Assembly (NCBI GenBank): GCA_022510405.1
Contig: JAFLTP010000002.1
Span: 1-64,000 of the forward strand
DNA length: 64,000 nt
Direction of reading: 5' to 3'
From: Muribaculaceae bacterium
GTDB taxonomy: Bacteria > Bacteroidota > Bacteroidia > Bacteroidales > Muribaculaceae
The translations under genes were made by a program, and so were the position numbers. Shown piece by piece: positions 5,273 to 30,500 of the stretch. The notes under the pieces were generated by a model, which worked only from the letters and a program-made list of their open reading frames with translations, did no database searches and was not told the DNA's origin. Positions within the stretch are counted from its first letter, which is position 1, and each line of letters starts with the position of its first letter.

Positions 5273-5446
5273 GAATTCCAAAGTGCGTTTGTCTCCGGTT
5301 TTTCAGTTTTAACTGAAAAATCTATTCCCTTAATCTTTGCCTCCCTAACAGATTCACCAAAATCCCTCCCTATGGAGGAGATTTCCATAGTGCTAATTTT
5401 TTCTTCAAATTGGTAAAGATAACATTTCCCTATTTCGCATATAATC

Positions 5447-5454
5447 TAACTTTG
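5447..5454 (+). promoter_or_regulatory. Bacteroidetes -7 box TAACTTTG upstream of the terminase-like ORF
   Basis: TAnnTTTG match ~30 bp upstream of ATG 5485. Confidence 0.55.
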
Positions 5455-5484
5455 CTTTTCATCTCTCTTATCTATGTTTCCATT

Positions 5485-6630
5485 ATGAACTCTCCCCAAA
5501 TCCTCCACGAAAATTCAAAACGTCTTAAAAAATTCTTTGCCCTCATCAACCCTGCTTTCGGTGACCCTCAAGACCCCAACCGTTTCCTTTTAAGTGTAAA
5601 CGGTATGAAAAAAGCATACCTTCCTACATCTATGAAATCCATCCCATTGATTCAAAAACTCATTGATGCTCGTTCCCTTTCAAAATTCTTACGTTCTCGT
5701 TTCTTCAACTCTAATTTCCATTCAGTCTCTCAACTGTTCGCAACCTTTAAGAATATTCGTTTGAAATATGATTTCCTTTACTGGATAGGTCATAAATACC
5801 CTTCTCAGATTCCTTTCAAAGAATTCCGGTCTCTCCTAAGTGAACTACAGTCAATCCGGTGGTCCGGTAAACCAACCAGAATCATTATCCGTAAAAACTC
5901 TCAACAGGATATCTCTGCAATCCTTAATCTTTTTGTAATCTGGTTCAAGGAATATGGCAAACCAAATTCCAATGTCATGATCGTTTCACATTCTGAAAGT
6001 GATTCCCGTCTTAACAAAGAATTCTTTCTCAATTTGAAAGATAATTCCCATTTCCCTCACTTTAAATTCAAAAAAACAGGAATATCATCATCCATCTTTC
6101 AACCTACAACCAAATCCAAATTTTGGTTCACAAGTGCATCTCACCCAGAGAGATGCCGTTCTCTCGATTTTTCTTTTCTATTTTTTAATGACTTGCACAA
6201 ATGGAATGATTCAGGAAAATTCTCTGCCAATAAAGTAATTCAGGCTACATTCCCCGTTATACCTAATTCCAATGATTCCGCGATTATCATGGAAGCCGGT
6301 CCCTTGAAACGTAACCGGTTCTTGCGTCAGGAATTCATGTTTGCACAAGAAAACATTTCAGGATTCAACTATATGTCCATACCTTGGCACCATAACCATT
6401 ATAACATGTATAAGTTCGACTTCCCCGAAGATAAGATTCTTTTCTATAAGAATCTCATGAAATTTAAAAATCGAAAAAAATTACCTCACTTCCCAAATGC
6501 AAACCCTACATATCTATACTCCCTCTGGACCCAAGGACTCCCACTCGAAGCCATCCATTGGTATGCCGCAGAATCCTCATTCTTCAAATCCCCTACCCAA
6601 TTCCAAAATCTCTATCCTCCAAACCATTGA
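5485..6630 (+). CDS. Orphan protein resembling a degenerate phage terminase large-subunit ATPase domain (speculative)
   Basis: RIIIRKNSQQDISAI, TSASHPERCRSLDFSFLFFNDLHKW and SAIIMEAGPLKRNRFLRQEFMFAQENISGFNYMSIPWHHNHYN follow the order of TerL Walker A region, Walker B region and post-ATPase segment. ORF track starts at 5410, but the -7 box argues for ATG 5485. Confidence 0.45.
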   Translation: MNSPQILHENSKRLKKFFALINPAFGDPQDPNRFLLSVNGMKKAYLPTSMKSIPLIQKLIDARSLSKFLRSRFFNSNFHSVSQLFATFKNIRLKYDFLYWIGHKYPSQIPFKEFRSLLSELQSIRWSGKPTRIIIRKNSQQDISAILNLFVIWFKEYGKPNSNVMIVSHSESDSRLNKEFFLNLKDNSHFPHFKFKKTGISSSIFQPTTKSKFWFTSASHPERCRSLDFSFLFFNDLHKWNDSGKFSANKVIQATFPVIPNSNDSAIIMEAGPLKRNRFLRQEFMFAQENISGFNYMSIPWHHNHYNMYKFDFPEDKILFYKNLMKFKNRKKLPHFPNANPTYLYSLWTQGLPLEAIHWYAAESSFFKSPTQFQNLYPPNH

Positions 6631-6960: not shown

Positions 6961-7019
6961 TTTCCATACTTTGGGAAAGATAACACGCACCTATTTTTCA
7001 CATGATATAATTTTGCATA

Positions 7020-7300
7020 CCGTCTTGAAGGAAACAGTGCCCGGGGCCGGTATAAAGTCCGGCTTAGGATGGAATCTTCGCTGTTCCCTTCCCAAAGATG
7101 CAGTGCAAGAGAGCACGACTGTTATCAAAGCAGCTATAAAAGCTATCTAAGCTAAAAGTTATAGAACTTATATAATCTATAAAAGCTATAAAAGCTAAAT
7201 TAGCTATATAAGCTATTTGATACGGACACCATGACATCGTTGACAAACTGCCGCATGAATTCCCGGGAGGAATCCTGCCCGTTGTCCCTGAATGTTTAAA
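7020..7300 (+). ncRNA. Candidate structured non-coding RNA (unidentified)
   Basis: TATAATTTTG promoter-like box at about 7007-7016, then local stems such as GGCCGG-TATAAAGT-CCGGCT and CAGTGC...GCACgaCTG; no convincing ORF. Confidence 0.2.
7130..7217. repeat. Degenerate AGCTATAAA / AGCTAAA short repeat tract
   Basis: agctataaaagctatctaagctaaaag...ctataaaagctataaaagctaaattagctatataagctat read directly. Confidence 0.75.
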
Positions 7301-7305
7301 GCCAA

Positions 7306-7333
7306 TTTAAACTTTAAACTTTCAACTTTAAAC
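7306..7333. repeat. Heptamer tandem repeat (TTTAAAC/TTTCAAC), 4 copies
   Basis: TTTAAAC TTTAAAC TTTCAAC TTTAAAC. Confidence 0.9.
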
Positions 7334-7432
7334 TTTCCCAAAGGAACATCTGCAGGTATTTCAAAACGGTCAAACAAGATTAACCACAGCGAAGTGGCCG
7401 GTTTAAAGTATTTAAAGCATAAGCTAACCTTA

Positions 7433-7467
7433 TTTAAACTTTAAACTTTAAACTTTACACTTTACAC
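7433..7467. repeat. Heptamer tandem repeat (TTTAAAC/TTTACAC), 5 copies
   Basis: TTTAAAC x3, TTTACAC x2. Confidence 0.9.
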
Positions 7468-7645
7468 TTTCCAATCAGCTGTCCCTCAGGGGAATTCTGG
7501 TGCGTGTCGGGCTCAAAAATATCAGGGTCCCCGAAGCGGCAGGGCTAATTGGTTGATATCCAATTGGTTTCCGTATGCTTTTCCGTCAGACTTGTAGCAT
7601 ATGGAATCCTCTGGCTGATTCAAACCCCATTAGGATTGGATCTAG

Positions 7646-7758: not shown

Positions 7759-7812
7759 AAGAGGCTCTTGAAGAATCCACCTGGATTCTTCGGGAGCCTC
7801 TTACCTTTTTCT
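7759..7812 (+). terminator. Long hairpin followed by T-rich tail
   Basis: AAGAGGCTC..GAAGAATCCA-CC-TGGATTCTTC..GAGCCTCTT followed by ACCTTTTTCTT. Confidence 0.65.
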
Positions 7813-19978: not shown

Positions 19979-21796
19979 TCACATAAAATCTTCCGGTCCG
20001 TATACACCAAAATCAGGATCCTTTTCCGGCTGCCATGTCCTAACTTTTATTATTGGATTGGCCGGGTCATTGATGTCGACCATCAAAAACAAATATCCTT
20101 TATCTCCATAATTTGAAGAATAGTATTCTTGAGAAATCTGGATGGCATAAACTTCTCCTCCCTTCCCGAGTTTCCGAACTTCATTATCCGCAAAACGAAG
20201 ATTGATATATTCTTTACCTTCAAAACTTCTTTTAAGAGCCTTCAAATATGAATCCTTTGTGTGGCGATTGTATTTAATGATATCCCCTCCAAATTGGATT
20301 CCATTTATTTCCCCATTCAAAGGCTGATTTTGTCTATACACTACTGCTCCGGTTATTATCACGGCATTATCGTCAAAAATAGTTTCTATATAATCCAACC
20401 GTTTTAAAGCATAGGCAGTTTGATAATTTTCTAAGAAATTCATGATCGCAAATCTTGCCTTTTCATCCCAAAATCCTTTCCCAAGAATATCATCTTCAGC
20501 TGTTTTCCCTAAACCGAAGGAAAGATTGTCAATCAATCCTTCTTTATTAAATGTAAAGACAATATCTTCAACAAAAGACTTCCTCATTCCGCTTGCAAAA
20601 GAAAACGACAGCTGAAGACCTCGGGCATAAACAGTCCCATTATCTTCGTAAAATTTCACATCCGGAGTTCCCACCACTTTTGCTTTCCCATATTTAAGTA
20701 ACCTTTCATAGATGTCATAACCATAAGGAGTGAAATAAGATTTTACATTATCATAGTTTTTTTCTACAATACTTTTTATAATTTTATCAATTACATCCTT
20801 GGTTTCTGAAGAAGCTTGAAACTCTTTAGGTTTACTTATTTTTTCTTGAGAAAGTTTAGAAAAAGAGTTTGAATTTTTTGAATGTGAGTTCATCCGGATA
20901 TCATCATTCTTTTTGAATGATTGATAAGCATTTCTCATTGGAATTGTTTTGATAGACTCCAAGACTGCTTCAACATCTTTATCTATATGTGCCTCCCCTT
21001 TATATTCATATTCATATTTCAACTGATAATTCTCATTTTGATTGCCTGATGCCATCTCTACTATTCCGACACCATCTTTTGCACTGTAGATATTTCCCCA
21101 ATCACTTCCATCGAAATATGTATAATCAATGGAATTTACCGGCAAACCTTTATAAGTAATAAATATTTCGATATCATCACCATTCTTTTTAACATATGAA
21201 CTATCCAGATTGGAAAAAATCTCATTCATCTGTCTTGGTATCCATGTCATAAGCACCACTTCATCTCCTTCTTCTGTTTGAAAAGTCATCCCGTCGGGAT
21301 ATTGGAGAGATTGAAGTAAAGAAAGAGCCCAGTAATAATCCTTTAATGCTACATCAATTTTACCCGCCCTTTCAGCATTAACAGCCGACTGGACATAATC
21401 CTTAATTTTAAGTTTTCGGAGTTCAAACAGTTTATTTATTTCACTTCTTTTAATCCATCTGCCCACATGGGCCTCAGGTTCATTTTCCAATATAACCTTT
21501 TCGGTGTTGTTAAGGGTTGCCTGTGAATAAGTTTTCACTATTGAACCGAAATTTGTTGTAGCATCAATATTTCCGTTTATGTTTCTTTCATTCTCGGTTA
21601 TTGTGGTTGTCCCCTCCACATTAACTGTGATTTTGCTGATAAGGTCATTTAAAGCCTGTTTATCCGCTTCAGCAACAGTCACACCCCAACCTTCCCCATA
21701 TAGATACTGGGGACTGTTAACCACCTGTTCCCAAGTTTGAGAATAGGAAGGAATAATTAATAATAAAAATAAAAAAGTTAAAAATATATTTCTCAT
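19979..21796 (-). CDS. Secreted/periplasmic protein with LPP20-like N-terminal domain
   Basis: Signal peptide; PQYLYGEGWGVTVAEADKQALNDLISKITVNVEG pattern typical of LPP20-like domains. Confidence 0.65.
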   Translation of the reverse strand: MRNIFLTFLFLLLIIPSYSQTWEQVVNSPQYLYGEGWGVTVAEADKQALNDLISKITVNVEGTTTITENERNINGNIDATTNFGSIVKTYSQATLNNTEKVILENEPEAHVGRWIKRSEINKLFELRKLKIKDYVQSAVNAERAGKIDVALKDYYWALSLLQSLQYPDGMTFQTEEGDEVVLMTWIPRQMNEIFSNLDSSYVKKNGDDIEIFITYKGLPVNSIDYTYFDGSDWGNIYSAKDGVGIVEMASGNQNENYQLKYEYEYKGEAHIDKDVEAVLESIKTIPMRNAYQSFKKNDDIRMNSHSKNSNSFSKLSQEKISKPKEFQASSETKDVIDKIIKSIVEKNYDNVKSYFTPYGYDIYERLLKYGKAKVVGTPDVKFYEDNGTVYARGLQLSFSFASGMRKSFVEDIVFTFNKEGLIDNLSFGLGKTAEDDILGKGFWDEKARFAIMNFLENYQTAYALKRLDYIETIFDDNAVIITGAVVYRQNQPLNGEINGIQFGGDIIKYNRHTKDSYLKALKRSFEGKEYINLRFADNEVRKLGKGGEVYAIQISQEYYSSNYGDKGYLFLMVDINDPANPIIKVRTWQPEKDPDFGVYGPEDFM

Positions 21797-21808
21797 TTAA
21801 TAATTCAC

Positions 21809-23113
21809 TCAGTTGTTGGAAATGGCAAGCCGTAGACCATTTGGGGATGAATAAACATATGAAGAAGCAGTACATTCTGATGCGGATGAATTGTAATATC
21901 CTCCATAATAAGAATAATTTTGTACCGCTTCCCATATATTCCCACTCATGTCATAAAAACCAAGTTCATTGGGAAGTAATTGTTTAACCGGATGTTTCTG
22001 TCCATCAGAATTTCCATTAAACCAAGCAACATCATAAATATTATTACTACCGGAATAAGTAAATCCTTGGGATTTATTGCCTCCCTTAAATGCAAACTGC
22101 CATTCTTTGAGCGTGGGAACCCTAAAATTTAATCTATAGTTTTTATATAATGTCGTGCAAAATGAATTCCAATCAGTACTACTAAGACCGGATTTTGGCA
22201 ACAAGCTTGATTCTCCTTGTTGCGTCACGGCATAGTATAATTCTTCTGTTGTTTCTGTTTCTGCCAACAAGAAATTTCCTTCTTCATATTCTACCGGTAT
22301 CATCACTAAGTCAACACCATTTATGTTGAAAACTGCATGATTTCTCCAACCACTATGGGAAGAAACCGTAGGAAGATCTACATATCCGCTTTCGCCTGCC
22401 TTATATATGGTGTTACTAAATTGCTTGGTGAATGCTGCATCTGAATAGATAACGTTTACTCTGGGTTCTTCCGAATCAGTAAACATACCGTAAATATAAT
22501 CCGTATATGTACCCTCAACTTGCATAGATAACATATCTGATGTTAACGTATAATTCCCGTTGGATGTATCAAATGCCGTGTAGCAGGATATTCCATATAG
22601 ATTCAACTTCTTGTTGTTTTCACCCTGAAATCTTATTCTTCCTGTTTTAGGAGAAAGTGTTGCTGACACGGTTAAATCCCCTCCGTCATATATATAATCA
22701 GCTTCAGAATCTTCATAAATACATGATGCGGAATTCAAAACTATAACTGAACCCATTTCTGAACCGGGATTGTCGACATACACTGCTAAACATTTTGTAG
22801 TGGCACCTGTCACTAAACTGCCAAAATAGGTGAGTTGCCAAGATCCGTTATTATACACCGCATCCCCATATGTGGTGCCATTTGATGTATCAAATATAAG
22901 ATACACCGTGTCTCCATTTTTCCATTCTTCCGCAGAACGTGTTTCCGGTTCATCAGAAAAATTGGACTTAGTAATTTCCATCGTCAACCTACAAGTCTTA
23001 GGTTCCGGCTGCAATGCATCGTCCGGATCATTTAGTATATCCGACTCCGAACTACAGCCCAATAAAATGAAAGTCAATAATGCAACTAAATTGATGTTTA
23101 TTATTTTATGCAT
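21809..23113 (-). CDS. Lipoprotein with fimbrillin-like N-terminus and C-terminal FGE-sulfatase/SUMF1-like domain
   Basis: Lipobox LLGCSSES; C-terminus FRVPTLKEWQFAFKGGNKSQGFTYSGSNNIYDVAWFNGNS...NELGFYDMSGNIWEAVQ...NGLRLA. Confidence 0.8.
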   Translation of the reverse strand: MHKIININLVALLTFILLGCSSESDILNDPDDALQPEPKTCRLTMEITKSNFSDEPETRSAEEWKNGDTVYLIFDTSNGTTYGDAVYNNGSWQLTYFGSLVTGATTKCLAVYVDNPGSEMGSVIVLNSASCIYEDSEADYIYDGGDLTVSATLSPKTGRIRFQGENNKKLNLYGISCYTAFDTSNGNYTLTSDMLSMQVEGTYTDYIYGMFTDSEEPRVNVIYSDAAFTKQFSNTIYKAGESGYVDLPTVSSHSGWRNHAVFNINGVDLVMIPVEYEEGNFLLAETETTEELYYAVTQQGESSLLPKSGLSSTDWNSFCTTLYKNYRLNFRVPTLKEWQFAFKGGNKSQGFTYSGSNNIYDVAWFNGNSDGQKHPVKQLLPNELGFYDMSGNIWEAVQNYSYYGGYYNSSASECTASSYVYSSPNGLRLAISNN

Positions 23114-23134
23114 GGTTCAAAAATATTTTAATAT

Positions 23135-25336
23135 TTATTTATTTGTCCAATTTTGTTCAGAGGAATAATCAACTACATTTAGATTGAGGGAACCTTCCGA
23201 TTTGGTAGTCCAATTTTCTTCATTCCCGAATCCTTCAATAGATATGTTTAATGAATTATGTGAATCATTATTCCAATTTTTATCTGTTGTGTAACCAATT
23301 ATTTTAATCGATAAATCTCCATTTTTAACATCATTCCAATTTTGGTCGCCAGGATAACCTTCAATTATAAAAGACCCTCCATATCCTACTTGAGTCACAG
23401 GAATTGAAATGGAATAAGATCCCTCTGATAATCCTTGCAAGGTCACAACCACACTTCCTTCACGAGAATCTGAAGATTCGTTTTCTTCAGCTATAACTAA
23501 GAAACTATTATTTTCATTTTCTTTCAAAGAAATCCACGGAGTTTCCGTTGATAAGGAATAATTTCCATCAGTTTCAACATAAACCGGAGTCGATTCTCCA
23601 CCTTTTGAAAAGAAAGAGATACGTGTTGTGGAAACTCTAAGATACATTCCGGCTTGATGCACATTTATCTTTAATCCTTGTGAAAATTTAGGTGTAAAGA
23701 TTATCACTGCCTCACGAGATTTTAAGGATGGATTTGGTGCAACCACTATATTGATTGTATCTTCTCCTTCACCTGAATATTTAGAAAGGCTCAACCATGA
23801 GGAAACTCCTTGTCCTTCTATTGTGGCTGACCATTGCTGATTAGTTCCTAAATCCAGGCTATGGCTCCCCCCTTTTGAGTCAAATGTGAAAGAATCACCG
23901 GCAATTTCAAAATATTTTGATTGTTGTGAAACTATAACTTTAATTTCTTTCTCTCCGAAATAATATGTGATTTCTCCTGTACGGTCTTGTTCAGTTGGAT
24001 TCTCTTCAACTGACACTGTGACTGCGGTATCTCCCTTTCCTGATTGCGGACTAACGGATATCCAGTCTTGACTAACATTAGAAGTCCATTCTCCATCAGC
24101 CGTAATTTCCAATGTCTGCGTTCCTCCTTTATCGCTAAATTCCAAGACAGAGGAACCCGGAGTCAGGGTTTGTCCTGATTGCATCACACTTGTTATATAT
24201 GAAATATCTAAACCCGGAGATGTCCAGACTATTTCCCCATTGCGTGAATTTACTAAAGGATTTTCTTCAACTGCAATTGTAACCTGTGTATTTCCTGTCC
24301 CTGACGCTGGGTTAACGGTAATCCATTCCGGTTTTGATTTTAGTTCCCAGGATATGTTGCTTTTTATTGTAATGGTTTCAGAAGATGCTCGAGATGAAAA
24401 AGAAAGCACAGAATCGGTTTCAAGATATAAACCTTTTTGAATAATTTTTATTTGAAGTCGACTTTCATTGCCGGTCAGAATTGTGACATAACCTATACGT
24501 TCATTAACTGATCCATTTTGTGAAACTTCTATATTAACTTGTAATTCTCCCGCACCACCCTCTGATGGATCGACCTGAATCCAACTGTCTGAAACAATCG
24601 CCTCCCATTTGCTTTCCGACACAATTGAAATGGAATATCTTGAAGCAGTATTTTCGAAATCAAGGGATAGATCTGATACTGTGATTTCTGACGGGAATTG
24701 GGTCAAGTGTATATTAGCATAAGTTTTGTTTTCATAACTTAGATACACAATTGCATTCCTGTAAGAAGAGGATGGATTTTCTTCAACCGATATTGACAAT
24801 GAATTGCCGTTTTCTCCCTTTTGTAAAGTTACCCAATTCTGATTTGTAGAAGCCTCCCATTCACAATTTGATTTTACTACAATAATTTGCGTTTCATAAC
24901 TTCCACTGAATTCCAAGCTTGTTTCTTCAAGATTCACATATGGAGTGTTTCCTTGTTGAGAGACATAAACACTTTGTTCATAATTCCAATCTTCAGCATT
25001 CGATCTTAAATAAAAATATGTTGATCTTGGTTCCGATGTATCGTTTTCACTGATTTCCAAAGTTCCATTCTCCGAAGAGTCCCCCGATGTGGGATCAATG
25101 GTTACCCAAGAAGGATAATTTTCGAATTTCCAAGAACTTGAAAGTGTTTCCACATAAAAATCTTCAGTGGCTGAATTTCCGTTATAGACACTGAAAGAAT
25201 TAGGAATTATTGATAAATATCTTGGTGTTAAAGATGGGTATCTTCCTTCCTCTAACGACTGCACATCTTTACATCCCGTTAAATATATCAATAGGATAAT
25301 GAGTATAGACAATGGATTTTTTAACAACTTCTCCAT
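23135..25336 (-). CDS. Lipoprotein with about seven tandem BACON-type domains and C-terminal 21-aa repeats
   Basis: Lipobox YLTGCKD; repeated ...WITVNPASGTGNTQVTIAVEENPLVNSRNGEI... units. Confidence 0.88.
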   Translation of the reverse strand: MEKLLKNPLSILIILLIYLTGCKDVQSLEEGRYPSLTPRYLSIIPNSFSVYNGNSATEDFYVETLSSSWKFENYPSWVTIDPTSGDSSENGTLEISENDTSEPRSTYFYLRSNAEDWNYEQSVYVSQQGNTPYVNLEETSLEFSGSYETQIIVVKSNCEWEASTNQNWVTLQKGENGNSLSISVEENPSSSYRNAIVYLSYENKTYANIHLTQFPSEITVSDLSLDFENTASRYSISIVSESKWEAIVSDSWIQVDPSEGGAGELQVNIEVSQNGSVNERIGYVTILTGNESRLQIKIIQKGLYLETDSVLSFSSRASSETITIKSNISWELKSKPEWITVNPASGTGNTQVTIAVEENPLVNSRNGEIVWTSPGLDISYITSVMQSGQTLTPGSSVLEFSDKGGTQTLEITADGEWTSNVSQDWISVSPQSGKGDTAVTVSVEENPTEQDRTGEITYYFGEKEIKVIVSQQSKYFEIAGDSFTFDSKGGSHSLDLGTNQQWSATIEGQGVSSWLSLSKYSGEGEDTINIVVAPNPSLKSREAVIIFTPKFSQGLKINVHQAGMYLRVSTTRISFFSKGGESTPVYVETDGNYSLSTETPWISLKENENNSFLVIAEENESSDSREGSVVVTLQGLSEGSYSISIPVTQVGYGGSFIIEGYPGDQNWNDVKNGDLSIKIIGYTTDKNWNNDSHNSLNISIEGFGNEENWTTKSEGSLNLNVVDYSSEQNWTNK

Positions 25337-25349
25337 AGGGGAACCTTAA

Positions 25350-27395
25350 TTAAAAAAATACATTAAGACTTACATTTAGTCCAAAACCCTCTGAAAAGCC
25401 TTTGATTTTTTTAGAAGCGTCCATGAGTAATTTGTAAGCTTCAGATTTACTTACATTCAACTTATATTGTGGCATGACAGATATGCCTAAATGATTAATT
25501 AATAATACCTCAAATCTTGCTCCAATAGGAATACTTGCTGCACTTGCTCCATTGGCTATTACCTCAGTCGCGTCGCTTTCTTTTAGTTTCACCATTTGTA
25601 TTCCTACTTGTGGAGTTATTCTAAAGCGTCCGGCAAAGCTAAAACCATAACCTAATTTCAAGTCCATCCCCCATGGAGTATAAGTAGCCATGTCCGGGTA
25701 TTCGGGATGACCGGTATAATTCCAATATATGGTTTCGCTTTTGCCTAACCCTTGAATATAATTAGCCTCTATGTTCATATTTTGGATATAACCTCCAAGA
25801 CCTACGTTTATCCCACTTAAGCCAACAATATTATAGCCAGCCTGCAAGTAGCAGGAATTTTTCTTTATTAAATTTTTTCGAAGTTTGATATTAAGGTCAG
25901 GAGTATTGGCACTCAAGTCCATATTCTTAGAGTAATCCAAGTAACCATCTTTTTGAATTGAAATATTGTAATTACCTGTGAAAAGGTCAAATCTATAGGG
26001 AGAGGTTCCGGAGTATCTGCCGTTGATATATACAGAAGCGTTAGAAGGATAAGTATGTAATGTTGACGAGCAATAACCATTTAAGTGCACATCTAATTCG
26101 CCTGATTTATCTTTTTCCACGATTAGATTCCTTTCTTCGCTCTTATATCCTTTCAATTCAAATGTAACCTTATAATTCCCTATCAATATTCTTTTATTAT
26201 TTATCGGTGTTATTCCCTCAAATTTATCATTAAGATACACTGATGCTCCTTTTGGTGAACTGTTTAAGGTTATATATCCATATAGTGGATGGGGTGACTC
26301 CAATCCTACGCTTTGTCTTATCCCGGTCTGGACCTCGATAATTTTTGTTGTTGTTGCATGAGAAGGTTTCTTTACCTCTATTGTGTGTCTTCCTTCTTCC
26401 AAGCGGGTGGTGAGCTTGTTGTTTAAAAATTGGAGAAGTTCACCATTATCATAAATTGTAACTTCCGGATCACTTATAAGAAAATCTACATAAGCATAAT
26501 TGGGATTTAAGGATGGATTTAAATTTACTGTACCGCTGTCAGTCACTTCAATATTGACAGAATAAGGTTTGTACAATTTCTGGTTTATTAATAGTTGATG
26601 GTTGCCACTTTTGATAGGGAAATCCTTAATAGGAATTCTACCTAATTGTTTTGAATCCAAAAATACCTCTGCCCCATCCAAATCATTTCCCCCGGGGATA
26701 TTTAAATAACCGAAAGCTTGTTTTAAAATAATCTCCTTTTTAGTGTTGTTCGGATTATCATTTATTTCTATATCCCCCTCTTCCGGATGATAATTATCTG
26801 CCACCACTCTATAATGCTTATTACCAAAAGGCAAATGTTGCACATAATGGCCATTTTGCTGTTTATCAATAATTATTCCATTTATATAAAGAGTTGCATC
26901 CGGAGGATAAATATCAAAAACAAATTCTTTTTCGTTATCATAATCTGTCACCAATTGATTCACTTCATTGGTAGTGAGTTTCATCCTGTAAGTTTTACCT
27001 TCTTCTAATCTCTTTTCATAAGAAAATGGTATTCTGCCCAAAATTGGGTGTTGAATTATTAAGTTTTTTACCCCTCTGGGTAAATATAGCCATATTTCGG
27101 CAGGATGTTCAGTATTTTGTGGTTCCACTGCAACTACTCCCAGGCTACCCGCATCAAATTGAAAACCTTTTTGTGTGGTTTCAATCTTAATCAAAGCGCT
27201 CACCTCCCCATTCTGATCTATTTTTTTAGTACCTTCACGAATTGCAGTTGGGTCCATCTCTTCAATCTTGAAAGATTCTACCCACATCTTTTGGTCATGT
27301 GTGGGAGTAATCTTTTCTTGCGAGAAGACTGATAAAAAATTAAATATGAAAATCAAGAGATAAAATCCCTTTAATTTCCCGGCTACCATAATCAA
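25350..27395 (-). CDS. PEGA-repeat protein with C-terminal outer-membrane barrel-like region
   Basis: Units such as SSPKGASVYLNDKFEGITPINNKRILIGNYKVTFELKGYKSEE and YPSNASVYINGRYSGTSPYRFDLFTGNYNISIQKDGY; alternating beta C-terminus ending in F. Confidence 0.82.
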   Translation of the reverse strand: MIMVAGKLKGFYLLIFIFNFLSVFSQEKITPTHDQKMWVESFKIEEMDPTAIREGTKKIDQNGEVSALIKIETTQKGFQFDAGSLGVVAVEPQNTEHPAEIWLYLPRGVKNLIIQHPILGRIPFSYEKRLEEGKTYRMKLTTNEVNQLVTDYDNEKEFVFDIYPPDATLYINGIIIDKQQNGHYVQHLPFGNKHYRVVADNYHPEEGDIEINDNPNNTKKEIILKQAFGYLNIPGGNDLDGAEVFLDSKQLGRIPIKDFPIKSGNHQLLINQKLYKPYSVNIEVTDSGTVNLNPSLNPNYAYVDFLISDPEVTIYDNGELLQFLNNKLTTRLEEGRHTIEVKKPSHATTTKIIEVQTGIRQSVGLESPHPLYGYITLNSSPKGASVYLNDKFEGITPINNKRILIGNYKVTFELKGYKSEERNLIVEKDKSGELDVHLNGYCSSTLHTYPSNASVYINGRYSGTSPYRFDLFTGNYNISIQKDGYLDYSKNMDLSANTPDLNIKLRKNLIKKNSCYLQAGYNIVGLSGINVGLGGYIQNMNIEANYIQGLGKSETIYWNYTGHPEYPDMATYTPWGMDLKLGYGFSFAGRFRITPQVGIQMVKLKESDATEVIANGASAASIPIGARFEVLLINHLGISVMPQYKLNVSKSEAYKLLMDASKKIKGFSEGFGLNVSLNVFF

Positions 27396-27441
27396 AAGAA
27401 CTTTTTACAAATTTAAAAAATATGTCCTTATAAAACAACGA

Positions 27442-27468
27442 GAGGAAGCAGAAGAGCTCTGCTTCCTC
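27442..27468 (-). terminator. 11-bp stem hairpin downstream of the 1227-aa secreted protein
   Basis: GAGGAAGCAGA-AGAGC-TCTGCTTCCTC; minus strand followed by a weak T-rich tail. Confidence 0.5.
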
Positions 27469-27548
27469 GATTAATGCTTAGATTGCTTGATTAAGCAAGT
27501 AAATCTAAGGGAATTTGAGATGGTATATTATCTAAGAAATATTTCTGC

Positions 27549-30500
27549 TTATCGTCGGATGAATTTCTTACCGTTTTTGATGAGGAGACCTTTGGCATTG
27601 GGACCAACTTGCTGTCCCATAATATTATAAACGGGAATGTTATCCTCATCCTGAGTAGCGTATATACCTTCCACACCTGCATCATCCGGTTCTTCTCCGG
27701 GATTATCTTCAGGATCATCGCCAGGTTCTTCTCCGGGATTATCTTCGGGATCATCTCCTGGTTGAACCTCTTCTTCGTCTCCGGGTTGTTCGTCTCCCGG
27801 TTCTTCATTGGTGTCGGAATACATGGGAGTAAATGTAACTTCGGGGAAAGTTCCATGGGCAAGGAAAGTTACTTCCGGTTCCTCTTCTGCTTCAGTCAAT
27901 ACAAAGGCACCACAAGGAACTTTGGTTCCTATAGCTCCTAAATAATAACTAACCCCTGCCAATACATTGAAAGTCAAGAAACCGGTATCATCACCCGGAT
28001 TTTCATCCATTCCGGCGACAACATAAGGGAATTGGGGTCTTACTTCTTCCGGCCTATCCCCAAATGGTATAAAATAAGAATAGGCATCCTGAGCATAGAA
28101 ATCAATCCAATAATATTCATTTCTCGGAAGAGTATAATGGATCTTCTGTTTCCCATTCGACCAACCCAAGGTGTAAGACATCGGACCTCTCAATCCATCC
28201 ATTACAACATACTGTTTGTTGGCTCTCATTTTTGTAAACACAGTCACCCAACCATCTTTCTCCGGAACAATTTCAACTACACTACCATATTCAAATCCCG
28301 TTAAATAGGTGTAGAAGCCAGGATTGCTGTTACCGGCAGCGCCATCAGATAGAACCAGGTCTGTGTCTCCCACTCTTACATATCTATAAGATCCATAAGC
28401 CGGGGTGATACCCCAATTGTCATCAAAAGCGGTGGCCATTGTACCGGCTTTACCTTCTGCAAAAATTACCCCACTATTTATCTCCAATTTATCACCTTTA
28501 ACTAAACCGGCGGCAGCTAAAGATTCCTCTGTAGCCTCACATATCATCCTATCCGGATTTAAGTCCATTTCGGGTGCATCACCCGGTTCAAATTCAGGTT
28601 CATCATCAGGTTTCTCTTCAGGTTTTTCGTCAGGCTTCACAACGGATCCCATATCATTAGGATCAAAAACCACTGTGGGATGGTCTTCTGTAGCAAGGAA
28701 TGTCACTGTCGGCATTTCATCGCTTTCTGTCAAAACAAACGAACCACAAGTGGCTTTTGAACCAAGCGATCCGAAATAATAAGTCTTACCGGCGGAAACA
28801 GGGAAAGTCAAGAAACCGTTGTTATCACTACTGGGCTCGTTCATACCTGCAACTTTCCACGGGAAATTAGGTTTTACTTCATCGGAGCCAAGCTCACCCC
28901 CAGCGCCAACAAAATAAGAATATTTGGGCGTGTCATCATAGTAAAATTCAAGTTCATGCCCCGCAACCACATAGTCCTCGAAGTCTATCAGATAATTTTC
29001 ATCGTGAGGCAGAGTGTAATAAATCTTTTCTGTTCCGTTGGAATATCCCAATGTATAAGCCAACGGTTTATCTTTACCCTCAAATACGACATATTGTTTG
29101 TTGGGATTCATTTTTGTGAACAGTGTCAACCATCCGTCCTTGGTAGGCGTGATCTCGAAAACCGCACCGGCCGACATAACTCCTCCGGCATAGTTTGTGA
29201 AAGTAGGATTCCAGTCACCTACAGCACCATAAGAGAGGGTTAAATCCACATCTCCTACCTTTACATTCTGATAGGATCCGCGTGGAGCATTGATACCCCA
29301 ATTGTCAGGGTAGGCAGTGGCAATTGTACCCACTGCTCCCTTGGCGAATACAACCCGACCCTCGATAGGTATCTTTCCCTCTGACACAAACCCGGCTAAC
29401 TCAAGTGATTCAAACGTAGCTTCACATGTCATCCGATCCGGATCAAAATTATCGGGCAAGTTATCAATAGATCCTAAGTCCGGTTTAACTTCCGGGTTAT
29501 CATCTGGTTGTTCGCCCGGATTATCGTCTGGAACCTCTCCGGAACCCATATAATTGGGATCAAAGGTCACTCCGGGAAGAGATTCGGTGGCAAAGAATGT
29601 CACTGTAGGCCGTTCATCGCCTTCAGTCAACACAAAGGAACCACAAGGGGCTTTTGAACCGTATGCCCCGAAATAATAAGATTCCCCTGCCTTAACTCGG
29701 AAAGTAATGAAACCGGTGTTTTCTCTTGGAGCTTCCCCCATACCGGCAACCACCCAAGGATATTGGGGTCTGACTTCATCCGGAGCACCTCCGGGTTGTG
29801 GTGTAAAATAAGTTGAAGCATCTCCTGCATTGAAGTCAATATAATAGTCTTCGGAATCGGAAGGAAGAGTATAATAAATCATCTGACTACCATCCGACCA
29901 ACCCAAGGTATAAGACATAGGACCTGACGAACCCTCCGTTATCATATAAGGCTTGTTGGGATTCAATCTTGTGAATAATGTCACCCAGCCATCTTTTGTA
30001 GGAGTGATCACGAATGCAGCACCATCGGAAAAACCTTGTGCATAATTTGGGAAATATGGGTTACTGTTGCCTACCACACCATACTCGAGTGTTAAATCCA
30101 CATCATTTACTCTTACATTTTTATATGCACCGCATGGCATGAAAATGCGCCATTCGTCAGGATAAGCTGTCGCAAGTGTGCCTGCAGCTCCTTTGGCGAA
30201 AACCAGTCTGCCCTCTTTTGGCATCCTTTCCATTTCAAAACCTGCAATCCGTAGTGATTCGGCCGTGGCCTCGCAAGTAATTCTGTTAGGATCAAAGTCA
30301 TCAGGCAGGTTATCAATAAGTCCTTCGTCCGGGTTATCTCCCGGTTCTTCTCCGGGATTATCTTCCGGATTATCACCAGGTCCTTCTCCGGGAATTACAC
30401 CAGAACCCAAATCATTGGGGTCAAAAGTCACTTCGGGAAGTTCTTCTGTAGCCAAGAATGTCACTATCGGCATTTCATCTCTTTCGGTTATAACATAAGG

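Follow-up and report, generated by a model that had tools for sequence, protein, structure and literature searches.

An open reading frame (ORF) in the Bacteroidales DNA analyzed here, a stretch of 64,000 nucleotides that we refer to as the window, forms part of an element that occurs in dispersed copies and has two components, a protein derived from a phage terminase (TerL) and an RNA, as judged by computational analysis of its anatomy, the selection acting on it and the sharing of its promoters. The same layout recurs for a second family of TerL-like proteins and for a third ORF, which is unrelated. In our preferred reading, to which we give about even chances, the element is a mobile module of protein and RNA that is triggered by phages and either interferes with phage head assembly or parasitizes it; the function is inferred, in the absence of expression, binding or infection data. 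Stated more broadly, and then, taken as a whole, with slightly less than even confidence, this would be a new phage-triggered ribonucleoprotein element in which the structured RNA is constant and the ORF, often derived from a phage, varies, each lying behind a copied virion-gene promoter; it would be dispersed in one Bacteroidales genus and would sabotage or hijack virion assembly. We found nothing relevant in the literature on such an element.

The earlier note placed the ORF at 5410-6630, where it is indeed present as mechanically called. The called start is a TTG at 5410, and because a phage-type promoter (5418-5454) sits downstream of this codon, within the first 25 codons of the call, the ATG at 5485 is probably the true start, giving a protein of 381 aa. 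The ORF is flanked by host-type genes, ABC-2 permeases to the left and an RND efflux operon to the right, with no capsid, portal, integrase or small terminase gene nearby, as had been claimed. Neither in the window nor in the neighborhoods of its relatives did we find portal, capsid or small terminase genes adjoining the ORF, in contrast to the prophages of the same genome. The description of the ORF as an orphan fails, given that a conserved structured RNA is located at about 7017-7545, and the ORF and the RNA each lie behind a phage-type promoter (Table 1).

Table 1. Coordinates of the features of the element in the window and of related copies elsewhere in the same genome (G000).
Feature	Position	Strand	Basis
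Phage-type promoter of the ORF, GATAAC-N23-TAACTTTG	5418..5454	+	exact 23-nt spacer
Truncated TerL-like protein (family A), 381 aa from the probable start; ATPase-domain fold, Walker A/B replaced, no nuclease domain	5485..6630	+	homology, alignment, selection, fold
Phage-type promoter of the RNA, GATAAC-N23-TAATTTTG	6979..7015	+	motif scan
RNA-A 5' domain, four helices (covariance model R1)	7017..7122	+	covariation; R1 match, E 6e-24
RNA-A conserved block 2	7229..7290	+	conservation between units; covariation of blocks 2-4
RNA-A conserved block 3, hypervariable repeat-filled loops on either side	7346..7390	+	
RNA-A conserved block 4 (3' core), also in RNA-C of the third unit	7485..7545	+	pairs with block 2
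Probable terminator hairpin of the RNA transcript, GAGGCTC...GAGCCTC	7760..7805 (ends approximate)	+	by eye
Third unit	G000:C33:631-1452 (L329)	minus	promoter scan of own genome
Solo RNA-C copy, no ORF	G000:C45:6082 (L330)		

The suggestion that the protein is a relative of the TerL ATPase was borne out by matches to TerLs of the genus, a profile match to T4 gp17, structural comparison and purifying selection. The ORF has no significant match in Pfam or NCBIfam and only a weak TerL hint in PHROGs (phrog_4758, E 0.44), and neither this family (family A) nor the second one (family B) matches any PADLOC defense family. In whole-genome searches, the best matches were TerLs of the same genus, mostly of about 700 aa (E 1e-24 to 1e-32); among them are two TerL frames in the own genome, one of which (G000:C73) is accompanied by an endolysin, a DarB-like gene and a weak tape-measure match. 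A 45-sequence profile matched T4 gp17 in the PDB at 8e-8. The AlphaFold model of the protein (pLDDT 85.8, pTM 0.82) had T4 gp17 ATPase structures as its best Foldseek matches in the PDB (E 3.6e-5) and also matched phage terminases among viral models, with modest TM-scores of 0.4-0.5. The model was built with TerLs as the alignment, so that fold and homology are not separate lines of evidence.

All the protein segments quoted in the earlier note were found in the ORF, and the two that had been described as Walker analogues do align with the respective motifs of full TerLs: RIIIRKNSQQDIS falls on LILLKARQWGGST at the Walker A position and FSFLFFNDLHKW on YNLVHLSEVGLW at the Walker B position. 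The absence of the canonical motifs was confirmed as well, with KARQWGGST replaced by RKNSQQDIS and LVHLSEV by FLFFNDL; KARQWGGS is kept in 43 of 44 distinct phage relatives. From this motif loss, without activity data, we infer that ATPase activity was lost. Furthermore, alignment to full TerLs located the stop codon at the linker between the ATPase and nuclease domains, where the ORF had been said to end; most full-length relatives continue for about 280-310 codons beyond this point, and the full TerLs of the same genus retain both KARQWGGST and the C-terminal nuclease part. The protein has in common with the ATPase domain of phage TerLs (T4 gp17, Sf6 gp2, P74-26) sequence homology and the ATPase-domain fold, the one criterion for a functional TerL that it meets, but differs in the replaced Walker A/B residues, the missing RNase H-like nuclease domain, the lack of packaging or capsid neighbors and the pairing with an RNA.

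The search for the same gene in related genomes yielded closer relatives in three further species of the genus, G096 and G092 with two copies each and G008 with a single copy; they are 44-60% identical and, where complete, 378-399 aa long. The truncation and the motif replacement are common to the members of family A, with a K-x3-x-D-I-S type sequence (RKNSQQDIS, RKNRDQDIS, RKNDQQDIS, KKIPDCDIS) in place of Walker A. The family forms a single clade (SH-aLRT 100) on a very long stem. The dN/dS ratios, for pairs with unsaturated dS, are mostly 0.16-0.38, and the ratio is 0.31 between two copies that are 96% identical, indicating purifying selection. Together with the homology to TerL, these values uphold the view of the protein as a domesticated, catalytically inactive relative of the packaging ATPase rather than a product of decay. 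As a separate candidate, a plain pseudogene was ruled out by dN/dS well below 1 and by the same truncation across species.

Directly downstream of the ORF is an undescribed large structured RNA, RNA-A. Nucleotide homology between units extends beyond the ORF into four conserved non-coding blocks, which are separated by hypervariable, repeat-filled loops. In the 5' domain, 93% of the alignment cells are paired, and 18 of the 27 pairs show two-sided changes, compared with a mean of 9.9 in shuffled controls and 3-7 when the partner was slid by 1-3 columns; covariation is 0.603 versus 0.214 in shuffled alignments. To align the helices, a few loop bases were omitted from some rows of the R1 alignment and one was added in one row. 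For blocks 2-4, 97% of the cells are paired, two-sided changes occur in 13 of 48 pairs (5.0 shuffled) and covariation is 0.260 (0.151 shuffled); this structure was predicted from the same sequences on which it was tested and is therefore somewhat favored. No Rfam family matches RNA-A or RNA-B, the RNA of the second family. The R1 model finds RNA-A in five genomes of the genus (111 were searched), and every genome with the family A ORF, four in all, is one of these five; the chance of this co-occurrence would be 8e-7 if the genomes were independent, but they are related, so that the value gives no more than an indication. R1 had no further match among 394 sampled genomes of the order. RNA-A copies without an adjoining ORF also exist, at G000:C26 and in G089, an 88% complete genome in which no TerL-like ORF was detected.

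Other species of the genus encode family B, a second truncated TerL-like family of about 312-333 aa, also without a nuclease, with KSFGRVGVTT at the Walker A position and dN/dS of 0.10-0.24. The family B ORF is followed by its own conserved multi-copy RNA, RNA-B, the 3' module of which shows covariation of 0.298 versus 0.146 shuffled, whereas the number of pairs with two-sided changes (6 versus 4.3 shuffled) is not clearly above the control. Profile comparison relates families A and B with a probability of 98.9 at 22% identity, and the stem branches of both families are 3.9-5.3 changes per site long; because of these long branches, it remains unsettled whether the two have one origin. Outside the genus, the family B profile mostly matched frames of ordinary TerL length. 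These results bear on the possibility that the ORF is decaying prophage debris in which a frame happens to have stayed open. The ORF does originate from a phage gene, and in G008 the gene is split by an insertion sequence, but dN/dS well below 1, the same truncation point and motif replacements across species, the covarying RNA and the existence of two parallel families leave this reading strongly contradicted by selection and covariation, and hardly tenable. The break in the G008 copy (L040:17812 to the contig end and L039:1-120) is accompanied by an apparent 9-bp target duplication, GGTTCAAGG.

For about 20 copies of RNA-B, the stretch read around them contains no adjacent family B ORF, although several of these copies are at contig ends. 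The ORF-less copies (L294-L313) tend to precede host genes on the same strand (14 in sense and 3 in antisense orientation), and two such positions are common to different species. Such placement would fit a host regulatory system unrelated to packaging, in which the RNA acts on neighboring genes and the TerL-like protein is a recruited RNA-binding regulator. However, the genes downstream have no function in common, the units with an ORF lack such an orientation bias, and terminator hairpins follow several of the RNAs (a hairpin with a T-run similar to that in Table 1 is also found after the C35 and C45 copies), and we regard this explanation as very improbable.

Most of the ORFs and RNAs of both families are preceded by the motif GATAA[C/G]-N23-TAnnTTTG; for two family A ORFs (G096a and G092a), the match is loose. 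The 64-kb window contains only two such sites, those of the ORF and the RNA. Across 1.8 Mb of fetched sequence, we counted 62 distinct sites at a spacer of 23 and 0-3 at any other spacer from 14 to 35; the fetched loci are enriched for units, so that the evidence lies in the contrast between spacers and not in the number of sites. In 80 phage contigs with TerL relatives, scanned with the base after GATAA left free, there are 34 distinct sites at spacer 23 versus 0-3 at others. By eye, about 29 of these 34 sites are directly before a gene of either a portal type (~655 aa) or a phrog_22323 type (~255 aa), the latter described as scaffold-like; one gene of each type was profiled and matched phrog_156 portal (E 2e-94) and phrog_22323 (7e-80), respectively. 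In the prophages of the own genome, the promoter precedes the phrog_22323-type gene (L002:3109) and a small gene closely followed by a capsid-like gene (C7). Judging from this placement, we conclude that the motif is the predicted virion-gene promoter of these phages.

A scan of the whole own genome for the promoter returned 13 sites, compared with 1 and 1 in the controls. Six are those of the window ORF and of copies or 5' fragments of RNA-A (C12 twice, C20, C26, C29 and C56), and one is that of the prophage structural gene on C7. At another position, G000:C15:48489 (L332, about 1989), a gene for a 322-aa tyrosine recombinase starts 70 nt behind the start of the promoter. Two sites on C33 define the third unit, which consists of a promoter, a 273-aa ORF, a second promoter and RNA-C, and the 3' part of RNA-C aligns with block 4 of RNA-A. 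The 273-aa ORF has no detectable relative and is not a recognizable relative of TerL. Because the ORF differs in the third unit, the RNA and the promoter are the constant part of the element and the ORF is the variable part.

This constancy would be expected if promoter copies or the RNA served as decoys that titrate a phage transcription factor or another component, the ORF being secondary. The own genome contains about five RNA-A 5' ends and two RNA-C copies versus one assembled family A ORF, and five or more RNA-B copies occur in G005 (85% complete), a genome without any TerL-type match. Nevertheless, the ORFs are under clear purifying selection, and a covarying RNA would be superfluous for decoys made up of promoters only; we consider the decoy explanation improbable.

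The units are dispersed. Those of family A have a different neighborhood in each genome, with no conserved neighbors found, and in the close relatives G025, G008 and G092, the permease gene that adjoins the unit in the window (94-96% identical) is followed by other genes; G025 has neither family A nor RNA-A anywhere in the genome. G092 contains two 95% identical copies of the unit with a sharp left edge, and RNA-only copies outnumber the ORF-bearing ones. All this is compatible with a phage satellite that redirects the packaging of a helper to move itself, with the RNA or its DNA as cargo or tag and the TerL-like protein as an adaptor. However, no integrase, replication or capsid gene is present in any unit examined, the RNA-A pattern has no match in 2.9 million viral contigs, and we found no insertion edges, target-site duplications or attachment site of the unit in these draft genomes, which break inside repeats. 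Contigs often end inside the RNA, which leaves copy numbers and some adjacencies uncertain. Overall, we view a satellite as unlikely, although it retains some weight. Defense and satellite functions cannot be distinguished: dispersal, duplication and RNA-only copies favor a mobile element, whereas the lack of an integrase and of copies in viral contigs argues against a classical satellite. In G092, a gene for a zeta-toxin-like ATPase and a small partner gene adjoin one unit (L043:1870-2577), and the partner gene recurs behind the RNA of the other unit (L107).

Under our preferred reading of a phage-triggered module acting on head assembly, the element would normally be silent. The identity of its promoters with those of phage structural genes implies that it is expressed while virions of related phages are being made: a phage or prophage of this kind, switching on its virion genes via its own factor, would also turn on production of the protein and the RNA. 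The dead ATPase domain, alone or bound to the RNA, could then join or block the packaging motor or the portal, and this would lower the phage yield, a gain that may fall to the host, as a defense, or to the element itself as a parasite. An inactivated ATPase domain that lacks the nuclease corresponds to the classical form of a dominant-negative subunit. To our knowledge, the sole analogue of a terminase-type ATPase-fold protein that works with a structured RNA is phi29 gp16 with its packaging RNA (pRNA). By analogy, the promoter timing, the dominant-negative shape and the phi29 precedent lead us to favor interference with packaging or its hijacking. A purely packaging-based reading is weakened by the third unit, which shows that a TerL-like ORF is not obligatory; as the ORF of this unit is no recognizable relative of TerL and many RNA copies have no ORF beside them, the essential part may be something other than the TerL-like protein.

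The element resembles several known systems but differs from each of them. Phi29 gp16 is an active ATPase encoded in a phage genome; RNA-A and RNA-B have no Rfam match, but whether the library includes the pRNA family was not checked and the RNAs were not directly compared. PICI and PLE satellites are dispersed and patchy and are switched on by, or act against, phage late functions. Our units are likewise dispersed and patchy, with triggering by phage late functions inferred from promoter identity only, but they measure about 2.4 kb, consist of one ORF and one RNA, and lack integrase, replication and capsid-remodeling genes. HEARO/OMEGA-type elements comprise a multi-copy structured RNA, with an adjacent ORF at some copies, as do the units described here; in contrast, our ORF is not an IscB/TnpB nuclease, and no Rfam family matches the RNA.

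If the proposed reading is true, these bacteria have placed a disarmed fragment of the packaging motor, together with an undescribed large RNA, under the control of the virion-gene promoter of the phage itself, so that the response begins when virion assembly begins, and an RNA-linked kind of phage interference or satellite would be added to those known. The rigid 37-nt promoter also offers a search handle for further phage-responsive genes in Bacteroidales, as exemplified by the third unit, which was found with the promoter scan.

Two features of base composition were also noted. The sense strands of the window ORF (5485-6630) and of the third-unit ORF (L329:634-1452) are unusually pyrimidine-rich for coding DNA. 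Elsewhere in the window, the GC content drops to 35-37% at positions 20000-28000, compared with about 42% around this stretch, which is possibly another acquired segment.
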